64,000 bases of DNA from Streptacidiphilus sp. P02-A3a (GTDB taxonomy: Bacteria; Actinomycetota; Actinomycetes; Streptomycetales; Streptomycetaceae), in assembly GCF_014084105.1 (NCBI RefSeq), contig NZ_CP048289.1:7883922-7947921 (forward strand), given 5' to 3'. The translations under genes and the position numbers were made by a program. Positions within the stretch are counted from its first letter, which is position 1. Every line of letters begins with the position of its first letter. Below, one piece after another: positions 16,563 to 52,330 of the stretch. The notes under the pieces were generated by a model. It made no database searches. It was not told where the DNA came from and saw only the letters and a list, made by a program, of their open reading frames with translations.

Positions 16563-16652
16563 TCAGGCAAGCCGTTCGAGACTGCGCCCATGATCCTCTC
16601 AGGCAAGCCGCTCCAGACTGCGCCCATGATCCTCTCAGGCAAGCCGTTCGAG
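16563..16652 (-). repeat. 36-bp tandem duplication of the gatB 3' end
   Basis: The last codons of gatB with its stop (16635-16652) are followed downstream by two more copies of the same segment at a period of exactly 36 bases (16599 and 16563), each joined by the same 18-base spacer. The middle copy differs at two bases (CTCCAG for TTCGAG). The duplication falls after the stop, so GatB is unchanged. Confidence 0.92.
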
Positions 16653-18137
16653 GATGAGCTCCTTCACCCGGGCCGCGTCGGCCTGGCCGCGGGTGGCCTT
16701 CATGACCGCGCCGACCAGCGCGCCCGCCGCCGCGACCTTGCCGTCGCGGATCTTGGCGGCGACGTCCGGGTTGGCCTCGATGGCCGCGTCGACCGCCGCG
16801 CCCAGCGCCGAGTCGTCGCTGACGACCGCGAGTCCGCGCTTGGCGACGACCTCGTCCGGCTCGCCCTCGCCGTCCAGGACGCCCTCGATGACCTGGCGGG
16901 CCAGCTTGTCGTTCAGCGATCCGTCGGCGACCAGCGCGCAGACCCGGGCGACCTGCGCCGGGGTGATCGGCTGGGTGCTGAGGTCGGTGCCGGACTCGTT
17001 GGCGCGGCGCGCCAGCTCGCCCATCCACCACTTGCGGGCCTGGTCGGCCGGGGCACCGGCGGCGACGGTCTCCAGGATCGGCTCGATCGCGCCCGCGTTC
17101 AGCACCGACTGCATCTCCAGGTCGGAGATCCCCCACTCGGTCTGCAGCCGCTCCCGGCGCACCCGGGGCATCTCCGGCAGCGCGGCCCGCAGCTGCTCCA
17201 CCCACTCGCGGGACGGGGCGACCGGCACCAGGTCCGGCTCCGGGAAGTAGCGGTAGTCCTCGGCGTTGTCCTTGATCCGCCCGGCGCTGGTGCTGCCGTC
17301 GTCCTCGTGGAAGTGCCGGGTCTCCTGCAGGATCGTGCCGCCGTCGTTGAGCACCGCCGCGTGCCGCTGGATCTCGAACCGGGCCGCGCGCTCGACCGAG
17401 CGCAGCGAGTTGACGTTCTTGGTCTCCGAACGGGTGCCGAACTGCTCGCGGCCGTGCGGGCGCAGCGACAGGTTGACGTCGCAGCGCATCTGGCCCTTGT
17501 CCATCCGCGCCTCGGACACGCCGAGCGCCCGGATCACCTCGCGCAGCTCGGCGACGTACGCCTTGGCGACCTCGGGGGCGCGGGCACCGGCGCCCTCGAT
17601 CGGCTTGGTGACGATCTCGATCAGCGGGATCCCGGCGCGGTTGTAGTCGAGCAGCGAGTGCGAGGCTCCCTGGATCCGACCGGTGGAGCCGCCGATGTGC
17701 GAGGACTTGCCGGTGTCCTCCTCCATGTGGGCACGCTCGATCTGCACCCGGAAGACCTCCCCGTCCTCCAGCGTGACGTCCAGGTAGCCGTTGAAGGCGA
17801 TCGGCTCGTCGTACTGCGAGGTCTGGAAGTTCTTCGGCATGTCCGGGTAGAAGTAGTTCTTCCGGGCGAAGCGGCACCACTCGGCGATCTCGCAGTTCAG
17901 CGCGAGCCCGATCTTGATGGCGGACTCCACGCCGACCGCGTTCACCACCGGCAGCGACCCGGGCAGCCCCAGGCAGACCGGGCAGACCTGCGAGTTGGGC
18001 TCCTCGCCCAGCTCGGTGGAGCACCCGCAGAACATCTTCGTGGCGGTCCCGAGCTCGACGTGGACCTCCAGGCCCATCACCGGGTCGTAGGCGGCAAGGG
18101 CCTCGTCATAAGGCACCAGGTCAACGGTGACGGTCAT
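16635..18137 (-). CDS. gatB: Asp-tRNA(Asn)/Glu-tRNA(Gln) amidotransferase subunit B
   Basis: The kinase/tRNA-binding subunit of the GatCAB complex, which phosphorylates and transamidates mischarged Glu-tRNA(Gln) or Asp-tRNA(Asn). The 500 residues show the GatB signature at the N terminus ([11 protein letters not shown]), zinc-type Cys residues ([15 protein letters not shown]), and the YQ-type C-terminal helical tail domain. Its ATG overlaps the stop of the TOPRIM-like gene by four bases, and its own AAGGAG lies inside that gene, so translation of the two is coupled. gatB is normally next to gatA; here two extra genes stand between. Confidence 0.97.
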
Positions 18138-18721
18138 AGGAAGTGCAACTCCTTCAGTACTTTGGTCAGCCCATCAAGCCAGGACTGATAGGCAGGGATC
18201 AAGGCAAGCCGTTCCAAGCGGATGTCACGGCCGAGTTGGTCCAGGACTTTGGTGGCGCTGCGCGAGCGAAGTACAGCTCGCAACGCGGCCTTGGGGTCCG
18301 CGATCGCCTCGGTCTCGTGCGGCTTCCTCGGAAGCCGTGAGAGATCGCACGCCGGGATGCGCTGGAAAGCCTGAGGATCACACAGTGCCCATGCCTCGGT
18401 CTCCCAACGCGGGACGATACCGACCAGCCGACGCCGGTCAGCGCCCAGACGGGCAGCGAGCGACTCGACCTTCCCGGACTCCCGGTGATCCTGGTGCGCG
18501 ATGACCACATCACAGCAGCCGAGCAGCATCCGCACCTCGTCCTCGACCCGATCGCCGGGATGCACGGTGCGGACCGGGGAGAGCACGATCTCCCCGACGT
18601 CGAACGCCTCGGGGCCTCGCAGGGACAGCTGCCGGAGCTGGCGCAGGATCACCGGGGCGAGCAGCAGTTCGTCGCTCTCGCCTTCGGTCACCAGGCCCGC
18701 CATCAGGTAGCGACCGCTCAC
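18134..18721 (-). CDS. DUF4276-like (TOPRIM-type) protein, partner of the adjacent ATPase
   Basis: A 195-residue protein whose conserved points fit a DUF4276/TOPRIM-like fold: VTEGESDE at residues 10-17, a central acidic strand end ([13 protein letters not shown], about 73-85), and [13 protein letters not shown] (about 104-116). In TOPRIM nucleases such Glu and Asp residues hold metal. It begins with GTGA, overlapping the ATPase stop by four bases, and ends with ATGA overlapping the gatB start by four bases. The arrangement resembles ATPase/TOPRIM defence pairs such as PARIS or OLD-type systems, but the exact family and any nuclease activity are inference. See the second copy at 51716-52330. 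Confidence 0.75.
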
Positions 18722-19797
18722 CAGGTGTCCCGCCGAACGGTCTCCAGATAGTTGCGGACCTCGATCGGAGTGACATAAGTGCCCCGCACACCGGTCTCCC
18801 CCACCCCCCGCGCGCGAGTGATCATGGAGCCGACACGGACACCGTCGACCTCCTCCGGGTGGAACACCGAGTCGAAGAACACGACCGCGTCCCGACCCTC
18901 GGCGAGCATGTGGGAGACCACCACCGGGGAGTGAGTGGTGACGATCACTTGCCGGCCCGGCCGCCCCTGGTCGGGACGGGTGCGATCGGCGATCCGGCTG
19001 AGCAGCGTCGCAAGCCGGGAGGGGTGCAGGCCGCTCTCGATCTCGTCGACGATCACCGTCCCCGGGTTCTCCGGATCATGGACGGCGGCGAGCAGGGCCA
19101 GCACCCTGAGGGTGCCGTCCGAGGCCACGCTGGGGGACATGGCACCCTGCTCCCGGTAGCGCAGGTCGTAGTCCCAGTCGCCACGGTGGTCGCGAACCGG
19201 AACCACGTCGTCCAGAGCCGGGATCACCGCGCACGCGTCCAACATCAGTTCAGCGAGCGTGTCGCTCTCGCTGAACCGGCCGAGTACCGCCGCGAGATTG
19301 GACGCGTCCGGGGCCAGTCGGCCCCGGTCCGTGCCGTCGGCCCGCATCCTGGCCAGCCCGCACACCGGGTCGAGGAACAGCCAGCTCCCGAGCTCCTGGT
19401 CCACCAGGTCGTAGTCCGCTCCTGATTCCCCCGTCCTCGGCCCGAAGGTCACGCGCAGCGTGGCGTCGCGGGGATGGGGGTGCAGCACCTCGCAGTACAG
19501 GCTCGGCTCGAAGGTACGGACCGTACCGGAGGTGCCGGGCAGGCTGATGGAGACGTTGATACGCAGCTCCCGGCAACGGCTGCCGTCGCCGCTCTGCCGC
19601 AGGAGTTGCATGCCGGTTCCGCGGTTGAACCGATGAAACGCGACGGGGTCACGCACCGTCTCCGCCAGCAGCCGGAGCGCGTCCAGCGCGTTCGACTTCC
19701 CGCTCGCGTTGGCACCGGCGACGACCAGGAGCGGTGGAACGTCCAGTGTGAAGTCCTTGAAGGACTTGAACCCGTCGATCTCGATCCGCTCGATCAT
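18718..19797 (-). CDS. SMC/ABC-like AAA ATPase (AAA_21/OLD-type)
   Basis: A 359-residue soluble ATPase. Walker A is GANASGKSN (about residue 29), an ABC-type signature region reads SPSVASDGTLRVLALL, Walker B is TVIVDEIESGLHP, and the switch His is in VTTHSP. This is the layout of the overlapping-lysogenization-defect and RecF-like ATPases that act with a TOPRIM or nuclease domain; here that domain is on the following gene. It lies 53 bases after the small membrane-protein gene, within the gat operon. The insertion is not part of the usual gat gene set, so it is probably acquired. Defence is the likeliest role, not shown. Confidence 0.85.
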   Translation of the reverse strand: MIERIEIDGFKSFKDFTLDVPPLLVVAGANASGKSNALDALRLLAETVRDPVAFHRFNRGTGMQLLRQSGDGSRCRELRINVSISLPGTSGTVRTFEPSLYCEVLHPHPRDATLRVTFGPRTGESGADYDLVDQELGSWLFLDPVCGLARMRADGTDRGRLAPDASNLAAVLGRFSESDTLAELMLDACAVIPALDDVVPVRDHRGDWDYDLRYREQGAMSPSVASDGTLRVLALLAAVHDPENPGTVIVDEIESGLHPSRLATLLSRIADRTRPDQGRPGRQVIVTTHSPVVVSHMLAEGRDAVVFFDSVFHPEEVDGVRVGSMITRARGVGETGVRGTYVTPIEVRNYLETVRRDTW

Positions 19798-19850: not shown

Positions 19851-20147
19851 TCAGTCCGCCAGGACGTCGTCGGTGCCGAGTCGGCGGAGCTCGCGGACCA
19901 GCAGGGCGGTGCTGGTCAGCAGAGCGAGGGCGGCGACGGTGGCGTTGATCAGCTTGAGGGCGTCACCCTCGGAGCGGGACTTGCGGATGTCCTTGACCAC
20001 ACCGACGGCGCCGAAGGCGCTGGTGCCGATGCTGAACAGCAGGCCGGGCTTGCTGTGCTTGAAGCCCTTGAGCTGCTTGGCCCGGCTGGCCCTGGTCTCG
20101 GTTCCGTTCGCCTCGACCAGTCCGGCCTTCTCGATGGATTTGCTCAC
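19851..20147 (-). CDS. small conserved membrane-associated protein of the gat operon (98 aa)
   Basis: A 98-residue protein read from GTG 20147, which overlaps the gatA stop as GTGA. Residues 1-35 are charged ([19 protein letters not shown]); two hydrophobic stretches follow at about 36-52 and 67-84, and the tail is acidic. Small proteins of this kind lie between gatA and gatB in Streptomyces genomes by recollection (SCO5500 position). Function is not known; the overlap implies co-translation with gatA. Confidence 0.75.
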
Positions 20148-21655
20148 AGCGCGGGTGCCTCCTCCAGCAGGGGGTGTCCCCACTTGTCGTTGAGTGCCGC
20201 CTCGACCGTTCCACCGACCCGGTAGAGCCGGTCGTCGGCCAGGGCGGGGGCGATGATCTGCAGGCCGACCGGGAGATTGTCCTCCGGCGCGAGACCGCAG
20301 GGCACCGACATGGCCGAGTTGCCCGCCAGGTTCGACGGAATGGTGCACAGGTCGGCCAGGTACATCGCCATCGGGTCGTCGGCGCGCTCGCCGATCGGGA
20401 AGGCGGTGGTCGGGGTGGTCGGCGAGACCAGCACGTCGACGTCCGCGAAGGCGCGGGCGAAGTCCTGGGTGATCAGCGTGCGGACCTTCTGCGCCGAGCC
20501 GTAGTAGGCGTCGTAGTAGCCGGACGACAGGGCGTAGGTGCCGAGGATGATCCGGCGCTTCACCTCGGCCCCGAAACCCGCCTCGCGGGTCAGCGCGGTG
20601 ACGTCCTCCGCCGAGCGGGTGCCGTCGTCGCCGACCCGCAGCCCGTACCGCATGGCGTCGAAGCGGGCCAGGTTGGAGCTGGCCTCCGAGGGCGCGATCA
20701 GGTAGTACGCCGGGAGCGCGTAGGTGAACGCCGGGCAGGACACCTCGACCACCTCGGCGCCCAGCTCGCGCAGCAGCTCCACCGACTCGTGGAACCGCTG
20801 CATCACGCCGGGCTGGTAGCCCTCGCCGCCGAACTCCTTGACGACGCCGATCCGCATGCCGGTGACGTCCTTGCGGCGGGCGGCGGCGACCAGCGGCAGC
20901 ACCGGGGTGTCGATGGAGGTCGAGTCCATCGGGTCGTGTCCGGCGATCGCCTCGTGCAGGAGCGCCGCGTCGAGGACGGTACGGGCGCAGGGGCCGCCCT
21001 GGTCCAGCGAGGAGGAGAAGGCGATCAGGCCGTAGCGGGAGACCGTGCCGTAGGTCGGCTTGACGCCGACGGTGCCGGTGACCGCGCCGGGCTGGCGGAT
21101 CGAGCCGCCGGTGTCGGTGCCGATGGCCAGCGGGGCCTCGAAGGCCGCGAGGGCGGCGGCGGACCCGCCGCCGGAGCCGCCGGGGATCCGGGAGAGGTCC
21201 CAGGGGTTGCCGGTCGCGCCGTAGGCGCTGTTCTCGGTGGAGGACCCCATGGCGAACTCGTCCATGTTGGTCTTGCCGAGGATCACCACGCCCGCCTCCT
21301 TGAGGCGGCTGGTCAGGGTGGCGTCGTAGGGCGGCACCCATCCTTCGAGGATCTTCGATCCGGCGGTGGTGGGCACGCCCTTGGTGGTGAAGACGTCCTT
21401 GAGCGCGAGCGGGACGCCCGCGAGCGGGCCGAGTTCCTCGCCGCGCGCCCGGCGCTGGTCGACGGCGCGGGCCGCGCCGAGCGCGCCCTCGGTGTCGACG
21501 TGCAGGAAGGCGTGGACCTTGCCGTCGACGGCGTCGATCCGGTCCAGGTGCGCCTGGGCGACCTCGACGGCGGAGACGTCACCGGCCGCGATGGCGGCGG
21601 CGGTGTCGGCGGCGGTGGCGCGGGTCAGGTCGAATGCGCTGTTCAGGTCGGTCAT
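20144..21655 (-). CDS. gatA: Asp-tRNA(Asn)/Glu-tRNA(Gln) amidotransferase subunit A
   Basis: Glutaminase subunit of GatCAB, releasing ammonia from glutamine for the tRNA-bound transamidation. The 503 residues contain the amidase-signature catalytic triad: Lys in LALKDVF (about 81), the cis-Ser in [12 protein letters not shown] (about 155) and the nucleophilic Ser in [11 protein letters not shown] (about 180). gatC ends six bases upstream, and the next gene overlaps the stop, so the whole block is one operon. Confidence 0.98.
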
Positions 21656-21661
21656 GGGTGG

Positions 21662-21958
21662 TCAGTCCTCCCCAAGGATCTGCGGCACGCGGAAGCGCTG
21701 CTCCTCCACGGCCGGGGCGCCCGCGAGGGCCTCGGCGGGGGTGAGCGACGGGCGGACCACGTCCGCGCGCATGACGTTGGTCAGCGGCAGCGGGTGCGAG
21801 GTCGGCGGTACGTCATCGGCGGCGATCTCGCTGACGCGGGCGACCGCGTCCACGATCGCGGTGAGCTGCTCGGCGAAGTGGTCCAGCTCTTCGGCCTTCA
21901 GCTCCAGCCGCGACAGCCGGGCGAGGTGGGCCACCTCCTCGCGCGTAATGCTCGGCAT
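21662..21958 (-). CDS. gatC: Asp-tRNA(Asn)/Glu-tRNA(Gln) amidotransferase subunit C
   Basis: A 98-residue subunit that wraps around GatA and stabilises the complex. The N terminus ([20 protein letters not shown]) and the C-terminal FRVPQILGE match the family. It is the first gene of the gat operon; the 77 bases upstream up to the end of the GGDEF-EAL gene should hold its promoter unless it is read through. Confidence 0.96.
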
Positions 21959-22035: not shown

Positions 22036-23703
22036 CTACGGAGGCGGGGCGGGGGCCTGCACAGGCGTTTCGTCCGCGCCGGTGAGCGGGGCGGCGAGCG
22101 GGGCGGCGAGCTGGGCGGTGAGCGGCGTGGTGATCGGGGCAGCGAGCTGGGTGGTGATCGGGGTGGCGCGCGGGGCCGTGCGCGGGGCCGGGTCCAGCGC
22201 GGGCCGGGCGGCGTTGCGGATCCGCAGCCAGGCGGTGGCCTGGTCGGCGGGCAGGGCGGCGGAGACCAGCCAGCCCTGGACCGCGTCGCAGCCCATGTCG
22301 TGCAGCCGCTCCCAGGTCTCGTCGTCCTCGACGCCCTCGGCGACCACGGTGAGCCCCAGCGAGTGCGCCAGCTGGACCGAGCACAGGACGACGGCGGCGT
22401 CGTGGTCGTCGGCGACCATCCGGCTGACGAAGGAGCGGTCGATCTTCAGCTCGCCGACCGGCAGCCGCCGCAGCCGGACCAGCGAGGAGTAGCCGGTGCC
22501 GAAGTCGTCCAGGGACATCCCGACGCCGTGGCGGCGCAGCTCCTCCAGGGTGGCGGCGGCCAGCTGGCCGTCCTCCAGCAGCAGCCGCTCGGTGATCTCC
22601 AGCTGGAGCGCGGCGGCCGGGACGCCGTACCGGGCCAGGCGTTCGGCGACGGAGGCGGCGAAGCCCTGCCGGAGCACGTCGCGCGGCGACACGTTGACCG
22701 CGACCTGCACGGTCATCCCCTCGGCCCGCCAGCCGGCGAGCTGGGCCACGGCGGAGTCCAGCACGTAGTCGGTGAGCTGCGGCATCAGGCCGGTGGACTC
22801 GGCCAGGCCGACGAACTCCTCCGGGCTGACCGGTCCGCGCCCGGCCCGCTCCCAGCGGACCAGCGCCTCCAGGCCGACCACATGGCCGTCGAAGGCGACC
22901 TTGGGCTGGTAGTGGATCTTCACGTCGCCGTTGTCCAGGGCCCGGCGCAGGTCGCCGAGCAGGCCCAGCCGCTCCGGGGTGTCGGCGTCCTGCTCCGGCC
23001 GGTACATCTCGATGCCGCTGCGGCTGCGCTGGGCGTGGGCCATCGCGACGTCGGCGCGGCGCAGCAGGGTATCGGCGTCGTCGGCGTGGTCGGGCGAGAC
23101 GGCCAGCCCGGCGCTGGACTCCAGCACCAGCTGGATGCCGTCCAGGAAGACCGGTGCGGCGAGTTCGGCGGCCAGCGCGCGGGCGGTGGCGAGCAGTTCC
23201 TCGTCGCCGCCGACGGCGGGCAGCAGTACCGCGAACTCGTCGCCGCTGATCCTGGCCACCACCGCGCCGGGGGTGTGCACCGCCCGGCGCAGCCGGATGC
23301 CGACCTGGACCAGCAGCCGGTCCCCGGCGGCGTGGCCGAGGGTGTCGTTGAGCGAGCGGAAGCGGTCGAGGTCGAACAGCACCAGCGCCACCCGGTGCGG
23401 TCCGGCGGCGATGGCCTCGCGGGCGGCCAGCAGCAGCGCGCCGCGGTTGGCCAGCCCGGTGAGCGAGTCCGTCTCCTGGTCGCGGACCCGCTCCCGGGCG
23501 ATCCGCCAGGCGGCGTACAGCACCGCCAGCGGGACCGCGAACAGCGGCAGCAGCTGCGGCGCGTGCCGGATCGTGAGCAGGGCCAGGGGCAGCAGTGGCG
23601 CCGCCCCTGCCACCAGCACGCCGACGAACACCGCCACCCTGATCGTCTGCCCGGTCGGGCCGGACTGGCCGGCGGCACGGCCGAGCCTCGACGTGCGCTC
23701 CAT
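22036..23703 (-). CDS. membrane GGDEF-EAL protein, probable c-di-GMP phosphodiesterase (RmdB-like)
   Basis: A 555-residue protein with two N-terminal membrane helices (about 20-68), a GGDEF domain (75-235) and an EAL domain (250-495). The EAL site looks complete: GLEALVRW (277-284), LEITERL (368-374), DDFGTGYSS (399-407), KIDRSFV and VAEGVE. In the GGDEF domain the signature is SGDEF (153-157) and no RxxD inhibitory site is seen at the usual place. The likely net activity is c-di-GMP breakdown. Next to ligA, where RmdB is found in Streptomyces by recollection. Start ATG 23703 is chosen for its AGAGGA site. The last 55 residues are a Pro/Ala/Thr repeat tail. Confidence 0.9.
22081..22191 (-). 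repeat. imperfect tandem repeat encoding the Ala/Pro/Leu/Thr tail
   Basis: Units of about 12-15 bases built on GCGAGCGGGGCG and GTGGTGATCGGG recur through this stretch. They encode alternating LAAP, ITTP and LTAQ-like units at the C terminus of the GGDEF-EAL protein. Length is likely to vary between strains. Confidence 0.75.
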
Positions 23704-23818
23704 GAAGTGGTCCTCTTGCTTCCCCGCGTACCCGCTGCGGACGGGCTGCTTCAAGCGTAAATGCGCACCTGTGCAAGGGACATGGAATTGGACGGTACGT
23801 AACCCAGCGGTGTCCTTG

Positions 23819-49366: not shown

Positions 49367-49636
49367 ATGACAGCCCAGCCGGAGATCACGCAGCGCGATT
49401 TGCGCAACAAATCGCGAGAGATCATGGATGCCGTCGAGGCTGGCCAGTCGTTCACCGTCACCCGGGACGGGCACCGGATCGGAGAGCTGATCCCATTGAG
49501 ATGCCGCAGGCGCTTCGTTCCGCGAGCGGAGTTCGCGGCGATGTCGCGGAGCGCACCCCACATCTCCCTGGATGCCTTCCGAGCGGACCAGGATGCCGCT
49601 ACTGCACCGGAGATGGACGAACCCTATGCCCGTTGA
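49367..49636 (+). CDS. vapB: Phd/YefM-type antitoxin (VapB)
   Basis: An 89-residue antitoxin of the prevent-host-death type: EITQRDLRNKSREIMDAVEAGQ is split by TxxD-like contacts and followed by FTVTRDGHRIGELIP, giving the N-terminal DNA-binding/dimer domain, and an acidic flexible C terminus that should mask the toxin. It overlaps the toxin start by 11 bases. ATG 49367 lacks a strong ribosome site, so short-leader translation is possible. The palindrome just upstream supports autoregulation. Confidence 0.88.
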   Translation: MTAQPEITQRDLRNKSREIMDAVEAGQSFTVTRDGHRIGELIPLRCRRRFVPRAEFAAMSRSAPHISLDAFRADQDAATAPEMDEPYAR

Positions 49637-50159
49637 ACACCAGCGGGGTCTGCTCGACACCAACATCATGATCCTCCGCCGCTGGATCGACCTAGCCGAA
49701 CTTCCGTCCGAGATGGCCATCAGCGCAATCACTTTGGCGGAGCTGTCCGCCGGTCCCCATGAGGTCAGACGAAACGACGAGCAGGCAGACTACGGCGAGC
49801 ATGCGGAGCGGGGCCGCCGACTCCACGTCCTCCAGTGCGCCGAAAACGAGTTCGACCCCATCCCCTTCGACGCCGAGGCGGCCCGAATCTACGGCCGCAT
49901 CAGCGCTGCCGCGGTCGGCGTTGGGCGAAAGCCGAGCAGACGCGTGGCCGACCTGATGATCGCCGCCATCGCCATCGCCGAAGAGCTGCCGCTCTTCACC
50001 ACCAACCCCGATGACTTCAAGGGTCTTGAGGACCTGCTGACCGTAGTACCGGTCACTCGGCCTGCATCGCCACACGACAGCCGATCAGAGGCCGGCAAGG
50101 AAATCCCTAGCACAGCCCCGAAGCCACGAGAGTGGCAAGGTACCCGGTCAGATCCATGA
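49626..50159 (+). CDS. vapC: PIN-domain toxin (VapC)
   Basis: A 177-residue PIN-domain ribonuclease toxin. The metal-binding acidic residues are visible in LLDTNIMI (Asp about 11), ITLAELS (Glu about 41), VADLMIAAIA (Asp about 110) and TTNPDDFKGL (Asp about 132). Most VapC proteins are 125-145 residues; this one has an extra 35-residue Ser/Pro/Lys-rich tail. ATG 49626 sits inside the antitoxin's last codons. VapC toxins cut tRNA or rRNA; the target is not deducible here. Carried on the island as a stabiliser. Confidence 0.9.
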   Translation: MPVEHQRGLLDTNIMILRRWIDLAELPSEMAISAITLAELSAGPHEVRRNDEQADYGEHAERGRRLHVLQCAENEFDPIPFDAEAARIYGRISAAAVGVGRKPSRRVADLMIAAIAIAEELPLFTTNPDDFKGLEDLLTVVPVTRPASPHDSRSEAGKEIPSTAPKPREWQGTRSDP

Positions 50160-50346: not shown

Positions 50347-50481
50347 TTGAACACCAGCGAGCACACGGAGCCGGCGAGCCACGCCTGGTCCGTCGCCGAC
50401 TTCCTAGGCGGCGACTACAAGCAGTCGGGCTACGGCAAGGGCGTCTTCACCACCTCTGGACGAGGAGTTGACGAGCCATGA
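50347..50481 (+). pseudogene. N-terminal stump of a type I restriction methyltransferase (hsdM)
   Basis: A 44-codon frame from TTG 50347 (AAGGGG six bases upstream; ATG 50317 is in frame too) reads ...HAWSVADFLGGDYKQSGYGKGV and stops at 50481. HsdM proteins begin with a very similar block ([23 protein letters not shown] in typical members, in outline), then ~480 more residues that are absent here. The stop overlaps the ATPase start as ATGA. The rest of hsdM and hsdS/hsdR are missing, so this looks like the promoter and first exon-like stretch of a lost R-M operon now driving the ATPase pair. Confidence 0.65.
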
Positions 50482-51719
50482 CCACTGCCTTCACGCCGCC
50501 CGTCGAGGGGGGCGCACTGTTCGTCACCAGCGTTCGGCTCACCAACTACAAATCCATCGCTCGCTGCGACATCCCCCTCGGCCCGTTCACCGTCCTCTTG
50601 GGTCTGAACGCAGCCGGTAAGTCGAACTTCCTCGACGCCCTACGCTTCGTCCGTGACGCCGTGACCCGTGGACCGGCCGAGGCTATCGGTTCCCGCGGTG
50701 GGCTCGAGAACGTCCTCTGCCGCATTCCTACGTTGGCGCACTCCTGCACGATCACCCTGGAATTCCGGCTACCTCCGTCCGTCGGCCAGGACACCACCTG
50801 GCACGGCCGGTACGGCTTCACCCTCGCCCGCGGTTCCGGCCCCCATGCTCCACAGGGGTGGGAGGTCCGACACGAGATCTGCGAACTGGGTGCCCTGGGT
50901 AGCGGCCGTCCGCCGTTCCGTTTCGAGGTCGAGCGTGGCGCAGTCGACGATCCCGCCTCCGAGCGTGAGTCGACTCTCCGGCCTGGCAGCCTCTACCTGC
51001 CACTGCTGGCCGGCACGGGCCCCTACGCCCTGCTTTACGCCGCGCTCGCCGACATGTTCTTCTACGATCCGGATCTCGCTGCGCTCCGTGATGCCCGACC
51101 AGCTACCGGCTCCGACAGCCTGGACGAGGACGGTGGCCATCTCGGTGCAGTCCTCGGCCGACTCGACCCTTGGGCAGCTGAGCGCGTCCCCGCCTACGCC
51201 GCCGCTATCGTGCCAAATCTGACCGAGGTTGGGCCATCAGCTTCGGCGGCGGCCAGCGACTATGTCGCTGCGCGCATGACTCTGACCGCTGGCGAAGAGG
51301 CGGAGCCGAAGCAGTTCCGCGCCGAGTCCATGTCCGAGGGGACCATTAGGGCGATCGGCCTGCTCGCCGTGCTCTTCCAGCCGCGCGCACGGGACGGCCG
51401 CATTCCGCTCGTCGCCATCGAGGAGCCCGAATTGGCCCTGCACCCCTTGGCTGCCGGTGTCCTGTTCGACGCGCTCACAGAAGCGAGTACATCCGTGCAG
51501 GTGCTGGCGACCAGCCAGAGCGCCGAGCTGTTCGACCGTAAGGAGGCCGACCTCTCCGCCATCCGTGTGGTGACCGCACGCGACGGAGTGACCGTCATCG
51601 GGCTGGTCGACGAAGTGAGTCGGTCGATCGTGGCGGACGGCTTGGCCACCGTCGGTGAACTGCTGCGCTCGAACCAGCTCGAGCCCCAAACACCGCATCC
51701 TACGGAGGCCGCCGAGTGA
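50478..51719 (+). CDS. SMC/ABC-like AAA ATPase (AAA_21/OLD-type), second copy
   Basis: A 413-residue ATPase of the same kind as the one at 18718-19797. Walker A is GLNAAGKSN (about 45), signature ESMSEGTIRAIGLL (about 297), Walker B PLVAIEEPELALHP (about 325). The usual switch His is absent: the segment reads LATSQSAELF where the first copy has VTTHSP, so hydrolysis may be altered. The two proteins share layout but little sequence by eye, so they are related systems rather than a recent duplication. Its last codon overlaps the partner gene start. Confidence 0.85.
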   Translation: MTTAFTPPVEGGALFVTSVRLTNYKSIARCDIPLGPFTVLLGLNAAGKSNFLDALRFVRDAVTRGPAEAIGSRGGLENVLCRIPTLAHSCTITLEFRLPPSVGQDTTWHGRYGFTLARGSGPHAPQGWEVRHEICELGALGSGRPPFRFEVERGAVDDPASERESTLRPGSLYLPLLAGTGPYALLYAALADMFFYDPDLAALRDARPATGSDSLDEDGGHLGAVLGRLDPWAAERVPAYAAAIVPNLTEVGPSASAAASDYVAARMTLTAGEEAEPKQFRAESMSEGTIRAIGLLAVLFQPRARDGRIPLVAIEEPELALHPLAAGVLFDALTEASTSVQVLATSQSAELFDRKEADLSAIRVVTARDGVTVIGLVDEVSRSIVADGLATVGELLRSNQLEPQTPHPTEAAE

Positions 51720-52330
51720 GCACACAGCGTGTCACCATTGCCTCCGTAGTCGAGGGGGAAGGCGAGCTCTCGGCCCTGCCCGTCGTACTCCACCGACTCA
51801 TGTACGCGGAGGGAATCTGGGACGCCGACATCCGGCCCCCGCACCTCGTCGACCGAGGCCGATTGGTGAAGCAGGGCGGCTTGGAGGCCACCGTGGACGC
51901 TCTTGCCCGCCGGCTGCCGCCCGGTGCCCCCGGCGGCATCCTCGCACTCATCGACGCGGACGACGACTGTCCTGCCGATCTGGGGCCGTCCCTGCTCGAC
52001 CGCGCGACCGTCGTGCGGCCCGACCGTCGCATCTCCGTGGTGCTGGCGAACCGGGAGTTCGAGGCGTGGTTCCTCGCAGCCGCACCATCGCTCGGAGGCA
52101 GGGCAGGCATGCCGTACGACCTCGCGGTTCCCGGGAACCACGAGACCCTCCGCGACTGCAAGGGCTGGCTTACTCACCACCGCACCGACGGCGGACAGTA
52201 CAAGCCCCGGGTCGACCAGGCACCTCTTGCCGACCTCTTCGACCTTGACCTGGCTCGGGCTAATTCGGCCTCCTTCGACAAGTTCTGCCGTGACGTCAGC
52301 TATCTGATCGCTGGCAAGCGAAAGGTCTGA
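51716..52330 (+). CDS. DUF4276-like (TOPRIM-type) protein, second copy
   Basis: A 204-residue protein that starts with GTGA, overlapping the ATPase stop by four bases just as in the first pair. Conserved points align with the first copy: VVEGEGEL (about 11-18), the acidic strand end LALIDADDD (about 76-84) and ANREFEAWFLAA (about 111-122). These Glu and Asp positions fit a TOPRIM metal site. No nuclease activity is shown. A further short frame (52336) begins five bases after the stop and may once have belonged to the operon. Confidence 0.78.
   Translation: MSTQRVTIASVVEGEGELSALPVVLHRLMYAEGIWDADIRPPHLVDRGRLVKQGGLEATVDALARRLPPGAPGGILALIDADDDCPADLGPSLLDRATVVRPDRRISVVLANREFEAWFLAAAPSLGGRAGMPYDLAVPGNHETLRDCKGWLTHHRTDGGQYKPRVDQAPLADLFDLDLARANSASFDKFCRDVSYLIAGKRKV

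Follow-up and report, generated by a model that had tools for sequence, protein, structure and literature searches.

Why should a gene pair of the phage-defence type lie between two genes of an essential transfer RNA (tRNA) amidotransferase operon? The question is raised by the gat locus of Streptacidiphilus sp. P02-A3a, contained in a 64,000-nucleotide stretch of its 9.33 Mb genome (contig NZ_CP048289.1, positions 7,883,922 to 7,947,921; hereafter the window). On the minus strand the genes follow in the order gatC, gatA, a small open reading frame (ORF), hecA, hecB and gatB (Table 1). A preliminary description had placed an ATPase gene and a DUF4276-like gene between gatA and gatB, joined by a GTGA overlap and running into gatB by an ATGA overlap, with the ribosome site of gatB inside the second gene. 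Reading frames and profile matches confirm the pair, and the coordinates confirm both overlaps and the internal site, an AAGGAG located 11 nt ahead of the gatB ATG. Many species have the pair in this very position and with the same type of overlap, so that the arrangement is not due to chance. From sequence and analogy we slightly favour, over all alternatives together, the reading that hecA and hecB form a two-gene HEC-01 immune module with a PARIS/OLD-like way of working, which would live in the expression slot of gatCAB.

Both proteins match the candidate defence family HEC-01 (Hma-embedded candidate 01 of PADLOC-DB). HecA is recognized by the HEC-01A model (E-value 1.1e-62) and by Pfam AAA_21 (4.1e-30), and it displays the P-loop, signature, Walker B and fold of the SMC/Rad50/OLD-type ABC ATPases, the best fold matches of its structural model being SMC, Rad50 and PtuA heads. 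HecA was aligned in sets of 8 rows (A1) and 24 rows (A5). In the Walker B region, E252, E254, G256 and H258 are invariant in A1, while A5 retains E254 and G256 throughout and E252 in >90% of its rows. The HEC-01A model matches 24/24 A5 members, a set gathered with HEC-01 and hence not independent of it. HecB, in turn, matches HEC-01B (1.9e-32) and, under the Pfam cut-off, DUF4276 (0.0018), as a distant member. In the 40-row HecB alignment A4, 37 members match DUF4276 (best 4.8e-15) and all 40 match HEC-01B, A4 having likewise been gathered with HEC-01 and so not being independent. The conserved glutamate of the TOPRIM fold (the E of EGxSD) is present as E13; H76 is invariant in A4 and in the 29-row alignment A3, and D78 is invariant in A3 and exceeds 90% in A4. 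A profile alignment by hhalign pairs EGESD with the OLD-type VEGDSD (E 0.0028, probability only 11%).

The window contains a second HEC-01 pair, of the ordinary type, on the plus strand (50478-52330). Its genes overlap by GTGA, and the EG and DADDD motifs are clear, both in register with the OLD TOPRIM (weak hhalign alignment, ~10% probability). Gene order and overlap are alike in the two pairs. Unlike ordinary HEC-01, however, the pair under study is situated inside gatCAB, its hecB tail is recoded as a gatB leader, and HxD stands in place of DADDD. Just upstream of the second pair, 49572-50159 (+) encodes a PIN-domain protein (Pfam PIN 2.9e-11).

Most Streptomycetaceae lack the pair at this site: only 11 of 388 genomes carry it at gat. 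Twenty-three of the 388 match the HecB profile at 1e-6. Among these, 13 are strong (6.3e-24 or better), with 11 at gat and two elsewhere, and the 10 weaker ones have no gat gene within their loci of 3.3-3.6 kb. In G062, gatB follows the pair and gatA lies beyond the fetched piece. A survey of 152 gatA-gatB gaps, not a random sample (14 genomes of the genus, genomes ranked by similarity of gatB to that of the window, and G194, included because its pair was already known), gave nine full pairs, two remains, one unrelated sequence and 140 gaps of 237-368 bp with the small ORF alone. The earlier statement that other Streptomyces have only a small membrane gene here holds for most. Insertion of arbitrary cargo was rejected for the surveyed Streptomycetaceae, since unrelated sequence (~244 bp, G095) occupies a single gap. 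Within the genus, G000 and G013 contain a full pair (the G013 assembly has frameshifts alike in gatA, hecA and gatB), G001 and G012 contain remains, and ten genomes are empty. The 4-nt hecB/gatB overlap fits in 9/9 surveyed pairs, as ATGA in the window and GTGA in the rest. Neither a near-universal presence of the pair in Streptomycetaceae nor homology of both proteins to a tRNA pathway turned up.

Outside this family, named genomes were scanned using the HecB alignment, which yielded 77 loci: 31 between gatA and gatB, two just after gatB and 44 whose fetched flanks show no gat gene. Nonomuraea, Actinomadura, Microbispora, Herbidospora, Streptosporangium and their kin account for 29 of the 31. 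In Streptomyces palmae and S. nymphaeiformis (L241, L257), a HEC-01 pair is found directly 3' of gatB, not before it. In the family to which GTDB assigns Nonomuraea and Actinomadura, 79 of 240 genomes match the HecB profile at 1e-10. At 2.1e-39 or better there are 66, all flanked by gatA and gatB; these are HecB matches and not all intact pairs (hecA is reduced to its start in G730, and a stop interrupts hecB in G708). Eight of the 13 weaker matches were examined: a broken copy at gat (G543), six loci showing no gat gene and one contig end. A class-wide scan of 296 genomes gave 17 matches, nine at gat, all in the two families, and eight gat-free. In two actinomycete families, one branch of HEC-01 occurs again and again in the gat slot and hardly anywhere else. 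The earlier notion of a defence-type pair in the gat operon stands as regards the HEC-01 match and the overlap, but not as an oddity of one genome. HEC-01 does not have the slot to itself in the Nonomuraea/Actinomadura family, as G711 has an opposite-strand gene for a thioester-domain surface protein there; in Allonocardiopsis such a gene lies behind the pair. Opposite-strand thioester-domain surface-protein genes in the gatA-gatB gap are located at L221:6680-7909 and L418:1299-2606 (-). In Paracoccus sanguinis (L240, 3417-3878 and 4667-6654), a HEC-01 pair with low G+C content at third codon positions (GC3) lies two genes from an apparent GatB/YqeY-domain protein, as judged by eye.

Gat-site hecB tails pair far better with the anti-Shine-Dalgarno than the tails of other HEC-01 copies, as measured for the last 30 nt of hecB against the 3' end of 16S rRNA. 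Gat-site tails have median duplex energies of -9.3, -10.55 and -10.5 in three groups (37 tails, range -11.4 to -4.8), as compared with -4.8 for non-gat tails (33 tails, range -8.2 to -0.7) and -5.3 for windows inside gat-site hecB (n=105); the Mann-Whitney value is 1.7e-11, relatedness not corrected for. The two pairs located after gatB have a tail median of -4.9. The tails LKELHFL, LKGLGYL and EGLGYQHG therefore spell a ribosome site. Upstream, the spacer that separates hecA from the small ORF contains a strong GC-rich hairpin in L046, L049, L052, L184, L045 and L035, with z from -2.0 to -4.3 relative to mononucleotide shuffles; the value is only -1.3 in G170, and neither the window nor G083 nor G139 has the hairpin. 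Many empty genomes have similar inverted repeats ahead of gatB, as seen by eye. The hairpin before hecA could possibly act as an attenuator.

The coupling had been expected to make the pair hard to lose. This expectation is unsupported because deletion and decay recur; what stays is the hecB tail serving gatB. G001 retains an in-frame fusion of hecA with the hecB tail, with most of hecB gone and the Walker B stretch altered, and in G012 the hecB tail alone remains. One of the 140 empty gaps, from another genus (G015), still terminates in CTGAAGGAGTTGCACTTCCTGTGA, identical to the tail of the window allele (score 34). Four pair-free genomes (G746, G723, G668, G644) have an ORF of 28-31 codons after gatA with a hecB-like end that overlaps gatB; its start is hecA-like, clearly in G668 and G644 and loosely in G746 and G723. 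The tails of these mini-ORFs score 29-60, against a maximum of 26 among 6476 clean control tails (L097, L173, L113 and L107 excluded), each locus being scored by the highest-scoring of a number of stops close to gatB and each control by a single stop, with a few tails of the comparison set coming from frame-broken rows. The tail is also kept in G694 (44), G700 (34) and G734 (26). G739 and G759 keep both ends with frames lost or shifted; as they do not pass the in-frame test, they were assessed by eye on the DNA sequence. The G048 tail (27) is unconvincing by eye. Among the 26 hand-picked loci, no tail was found in G682, G710, G690, G688, G737, G670, G740 and G614, and likewise in G752, G698, G683, G735, G681, G724 and G731. 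As loci were partly picked by gap size, no loss rate is claimed. These scars bear on the idea of a selfish, toxin-antitoxin-like pair that would prevent its own loss through coupling to gatB. Two overlapping genes, a nuclease-like second gene and the overlap with an essential gene would suit such a pair, but the recurring losses, the internal deletions that leave a gatB-overlapping mini-ORF, and the G001 fusion lacking most of hecB render it very improbable.

Both genes are under purifying selection. The dN/dS ratio is 0.16-0.38 for hecA (ten close species pairs) and 0.08-0.24 for hecB (nine pairs; the value of 0.81 for L253/L266 was set aside because the L266 hecB is frame-broken), compared to 0.02-0.21 for gatA and gatB of the same pairs, which share species and hence are not independent. 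In the window, GC3 is 0.875 for hecA and 0.791 for hecB, versus 0.964 for gatA and 0.97 for gatB. Conversely, the centre of HecA is variable, with a column identity of 0.19-0.50 as against 0.85-0.92 at residues 1-40, and it takes in a low-confidence stretch of the model (residues 81-130). In species pairs, again sharing species, residues 71-170 of the first protein per pair are 30-83% identical, compared to 81-93% from residue 171 to the end, and fall below both flanks in 9/9 pairs; pN/pS is 0.38-0.75 in the former and 0.15-0.37 in the latter. HecB, unlike the HecA centre, is conserved overall, and we propose that a variable HecA centre combined with a conserved HecB represents a sensor-effector pattern. 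Patchy presence, lower GC3, dN/dS and the variable HecA centre together form an immune-like pattern. Some of the same features would also fit a module with a housekeeping or regulatory function in tRNA-dependent amidation, which would tune GatB synthesis or police mischarged tRNA and have no part in defence. Such a module could account for the fixed address, the co-direction, the gatB overlap, the purifying selection and the genus-wise inheritance in the Nonomuraea/Actinomadura family. Still, the pair is patchy, repeatedly deleted, fast-diverging and variable in the HecA centre, its profile family is drawn from defence contexts, and homologues occur elsewhere without gat, so that we regard a housekeeping function as distinctly unlikely.

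A HecA tree of 83 rows places the majority of gat-site copies in one actinomycete branch, which tracks genera within the Nonomuraea/Actinomadura family. The other half, with non-gat HEC-01 of other phyla, holds seven gat-site copies of that family and G062. This tree omits duplicates (L234, L242, L206, L213), broken or fragmentary copies (L045, L233, L274, L276) and rows <200 aa; the HecB tree additionally omits L035, L051, L236, L258, L259, L261, L262 and L266. A 4-nt hecB-gatB overlap is possible in 25/47 loci of lineage I, and an 8-nt overlap occurs in 19/22 of lineage II, with lineage set by the best-matching HecB and two genomes counted twice. Sphaerimonospora (L209) contains tandem pairs, one per lineage. 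Two certain colonisations were rejected as a conclusion (approximately unbiased test, AU, p 0.03 for HecA and 0.119 for HecB; groups named after the first tree had been inspected), and a single ancient settling followed by tandem divergence is possible. Ten Streptomyces rows from outside gat group next to the window copy in the HecB tree; therefore, some pairs changed sites. The non-gat Streptomyces HEC-01 copies L200, L201, L202, L203, L205, L207, L208 and L211 form a branch that nests next to the window copy in the HecB tree and not in the HecA tree. G000 and G154 carry similar pairs. Recent cross-genus transfer together with gat flanks is unsupported, as G000-G154 identity in the gatA tail and gatB is no higher near the junction. 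Carriage by phages or plasmids was likewise rejected: HecA searched against phages gave three records, all <60% identity (HecB was not run), and HecB against plasmids gave none (HecA was not run).

Several known systems resemble the pair. The OLD nucleases, Gabija GajA and the retron Eco8 effector join an ABC ATPase with TOPRIM, as proposed for HecA and HecB, albeit in one polypeptide rather than two genes. Septu and retron PtuA-PtuB resemble the pair through the PtuA heads among the fold matches of HecA; PtuB is an HNH nuclease, as PDB titles also state, and HecB has no HNH match among Pfam and PADLOC families. In PARIS (AriA-AriB), an OLD-like ABC ATPase is found beside a TOPRIM nuclease, and gat placement is one feature that sets the pair apart. 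The AriA model matches HecA (4.8e-29), ranking below HEC-01A and PDC-M07A; no AriB model is among the 11 PADLOC families obtained for HecB (E up to 0.1), the AriB models of the library not having been checked. The HEC names reportedly go back to a 2024 preprint by Payne et al. In another paper, which cites this preprint, several Hma-embedded candidates, HEC-06 included, showed antiviral activity, and its text does not name HEC-01. The combination of OLD-ABC and TOPRIM is described as a recurrent conflict module in a BREX paper (PMC12839542). According to PMC12409363, AriA senses, and AriB relies on its TOPRIM glutamate E26 and cuts tRNA-Lys, tRNA-Thr and, less, tRNA-Asn.

The tRNA targets of AriB, an analogous TOPRIM effector, lend interest to a form of defence tied to the operon, in which HecB would act on tRNA (Gln/Asn, the GatCAB substrates) or HecA would stand guard over GatCAB or over charged tRNA, the position being then a consequence of the mechanism. 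The near-confinement of the strong HecB branch to gat in two families, the two deep lineages there with their different typical overlaps, and the Sphaerimonospora tandem would be in line with this. However, HEC-01 also occurs in further phyla and in some twelve named Streptomyces, where the flanking sequence retrieved shows no gat gene, the pair is missing from the majority of genomes in both families, the tRNA link is itself conjectural, and the trees do not firmly require two colonisations. We therefore consider operon-tied defence unlikely, and a role of the pair in tRNA biology possible. We are equally doubtful that the gatA-gatB slot is a functional address, settled perhaps twice because HecB acts on the tRNA-Gln/Asn pathway or HecA watches GatCAB or tRNA amidation, where an essential tRNA enzyme would have become one unit with an immune module and the immune gene would have captured the gatB translation start.

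As for the preferred reading, an immune module in the gatCAB expression slot, the following sequence of events is conceivable. HecA, an SMC/Rad50-like ATPase, would hold or control HecB, and its variable centre would recognise a phage trigger. An ATP-driven change would then free or activate HecB, a putative metal-dependent TOPRIM-type nuclease that would cut nucleic acid and halt the infection. The genes hecA and hecB would be read together with gatA-gatB, and ribosomes ending hecB would re-start at gatB by means of the recoded hecB tail as Shine-Dalgarno sequence. After loss of the pair, the tail would be kept or another arrangement adopted, often direct gatA-gatB contact. An immune role of the pair appears likely.

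A number of observations weigh against this reading. The second HecB motif is HxD, not DxD. The OLD C-terminal domain is among the best rows for the HecB model, yet as a middling match tied with Argonaute MID domains; Foldseek returned no match <1e-3 for the model, and a PDB sequence search with the HecB profile no credible match. Judged from motifs, weak profile scores and a middling fold match, HecB is probably a TOPRIM protein. The Shine-Dalgarno contrast is strong but not absolute because the ranges overlap (gat to -4.8, non-gat to -8.2) and the tail of the second pair reaches -7.6. A fixed site in 66/66 genomes and genus-wise inheritance are unusual for a defence system. Moreover, pS is higher in the HecA centre than from residue 171 to the end in 7/9 pairs; therefore, cassette exchange or relaxed constraint could explain the centre as well as diversifying selection does. 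Finally, our literature search found no publication testing HEC-01, which is a candidate family.

Table 1. Features of the gat locus and of the second HEC-01 pair in the window (values after family names are E-values)
Feature	Position	Strand	Remarks
hecA	18718..19797	-	SMC/Rad50/OLD-like ABC ATPase, HEC-01A, 359 aa
hecB	18134..18721	-	DUF4276-type, probable TOPRIM nuclease by sequence, HEC-01B, 195 aa
gatB	16635..18137	-	Pfam GatB_N 2.5e-108
small ORF	19851..20147	-	upstream of pair, family-conserved; without a Pfam match; by eye probably a membrane protein
gatA	20144..21655	-	Pfam Amidase 1.5e-157
gatC	21662..21958	-	reading frame; stays beside gatA in relatives
GTGA, hecA stop and hecB start overlapping	18718..18721	-	
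ATGA, hecB stop and gatB start overlapping	18134..18137	-	
AAGGAG, likely gatB Shine-Dalgarno within hecB tail	18149..18154	-	duplex energy -9.3
hecA P-loop GANASGKSN, residues 28-36	19690..19716	-	G28, N30, G33-N36 invariant in A5
hecA Walker B region VIVDEIESGLHP, residues 248-259	19021..19056	-	motif residues conserved in A1, A5
hecA variable central region, ~residues 41-160 (window numbering)	19318..19677	-	proposed sensor; from column identity
hecB EGESD, residues 13-17	18671..18685	-	TOPRIM-like glutamate motif; E13, D17 invariant in 29 + 40 rows
hecB H76-x-D78	18488..18496	-	position of TOPRIM DxD; aligned to IDADDD of ordinary HEC-01B
second-pair ATPase	50478-51719	+	HEC-01A 3.7e-128
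second-pair DUF4276 protein	51716-52330	+	HEC-01B 2.1e-71

Adjoining gatC, the reading frame at 22036-23754 (-) likely encodes a GGDEF-EAL protein, as judged by eye from its translation.

In summary, a known kind of candidate immune pair is found in a new and strikingly constant setting. Searches for GatCAB or tRNA amidotransferase with defence or phage, and for DUF4276, returned no paper, and as far as these literature searches reach, the gat placement of a defence-like pair is unreported. Searches for defence genes usually look to mobile islands, whereas the candidate branch described here is found almost only in an essential, conserved operon, a placement that suggests why island-based surveys could miss such pairs. 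The pair is positioned to share the expression of the operon and has rewritten the start site for translation of the essential gene that follows. Gain, change of allele and loss can also be followed here at one fixed site, with scars marking the losses, which is seldom possible. If it were true that position reflects mechanism, bacterial immunity would be linked to tRNA amidation.

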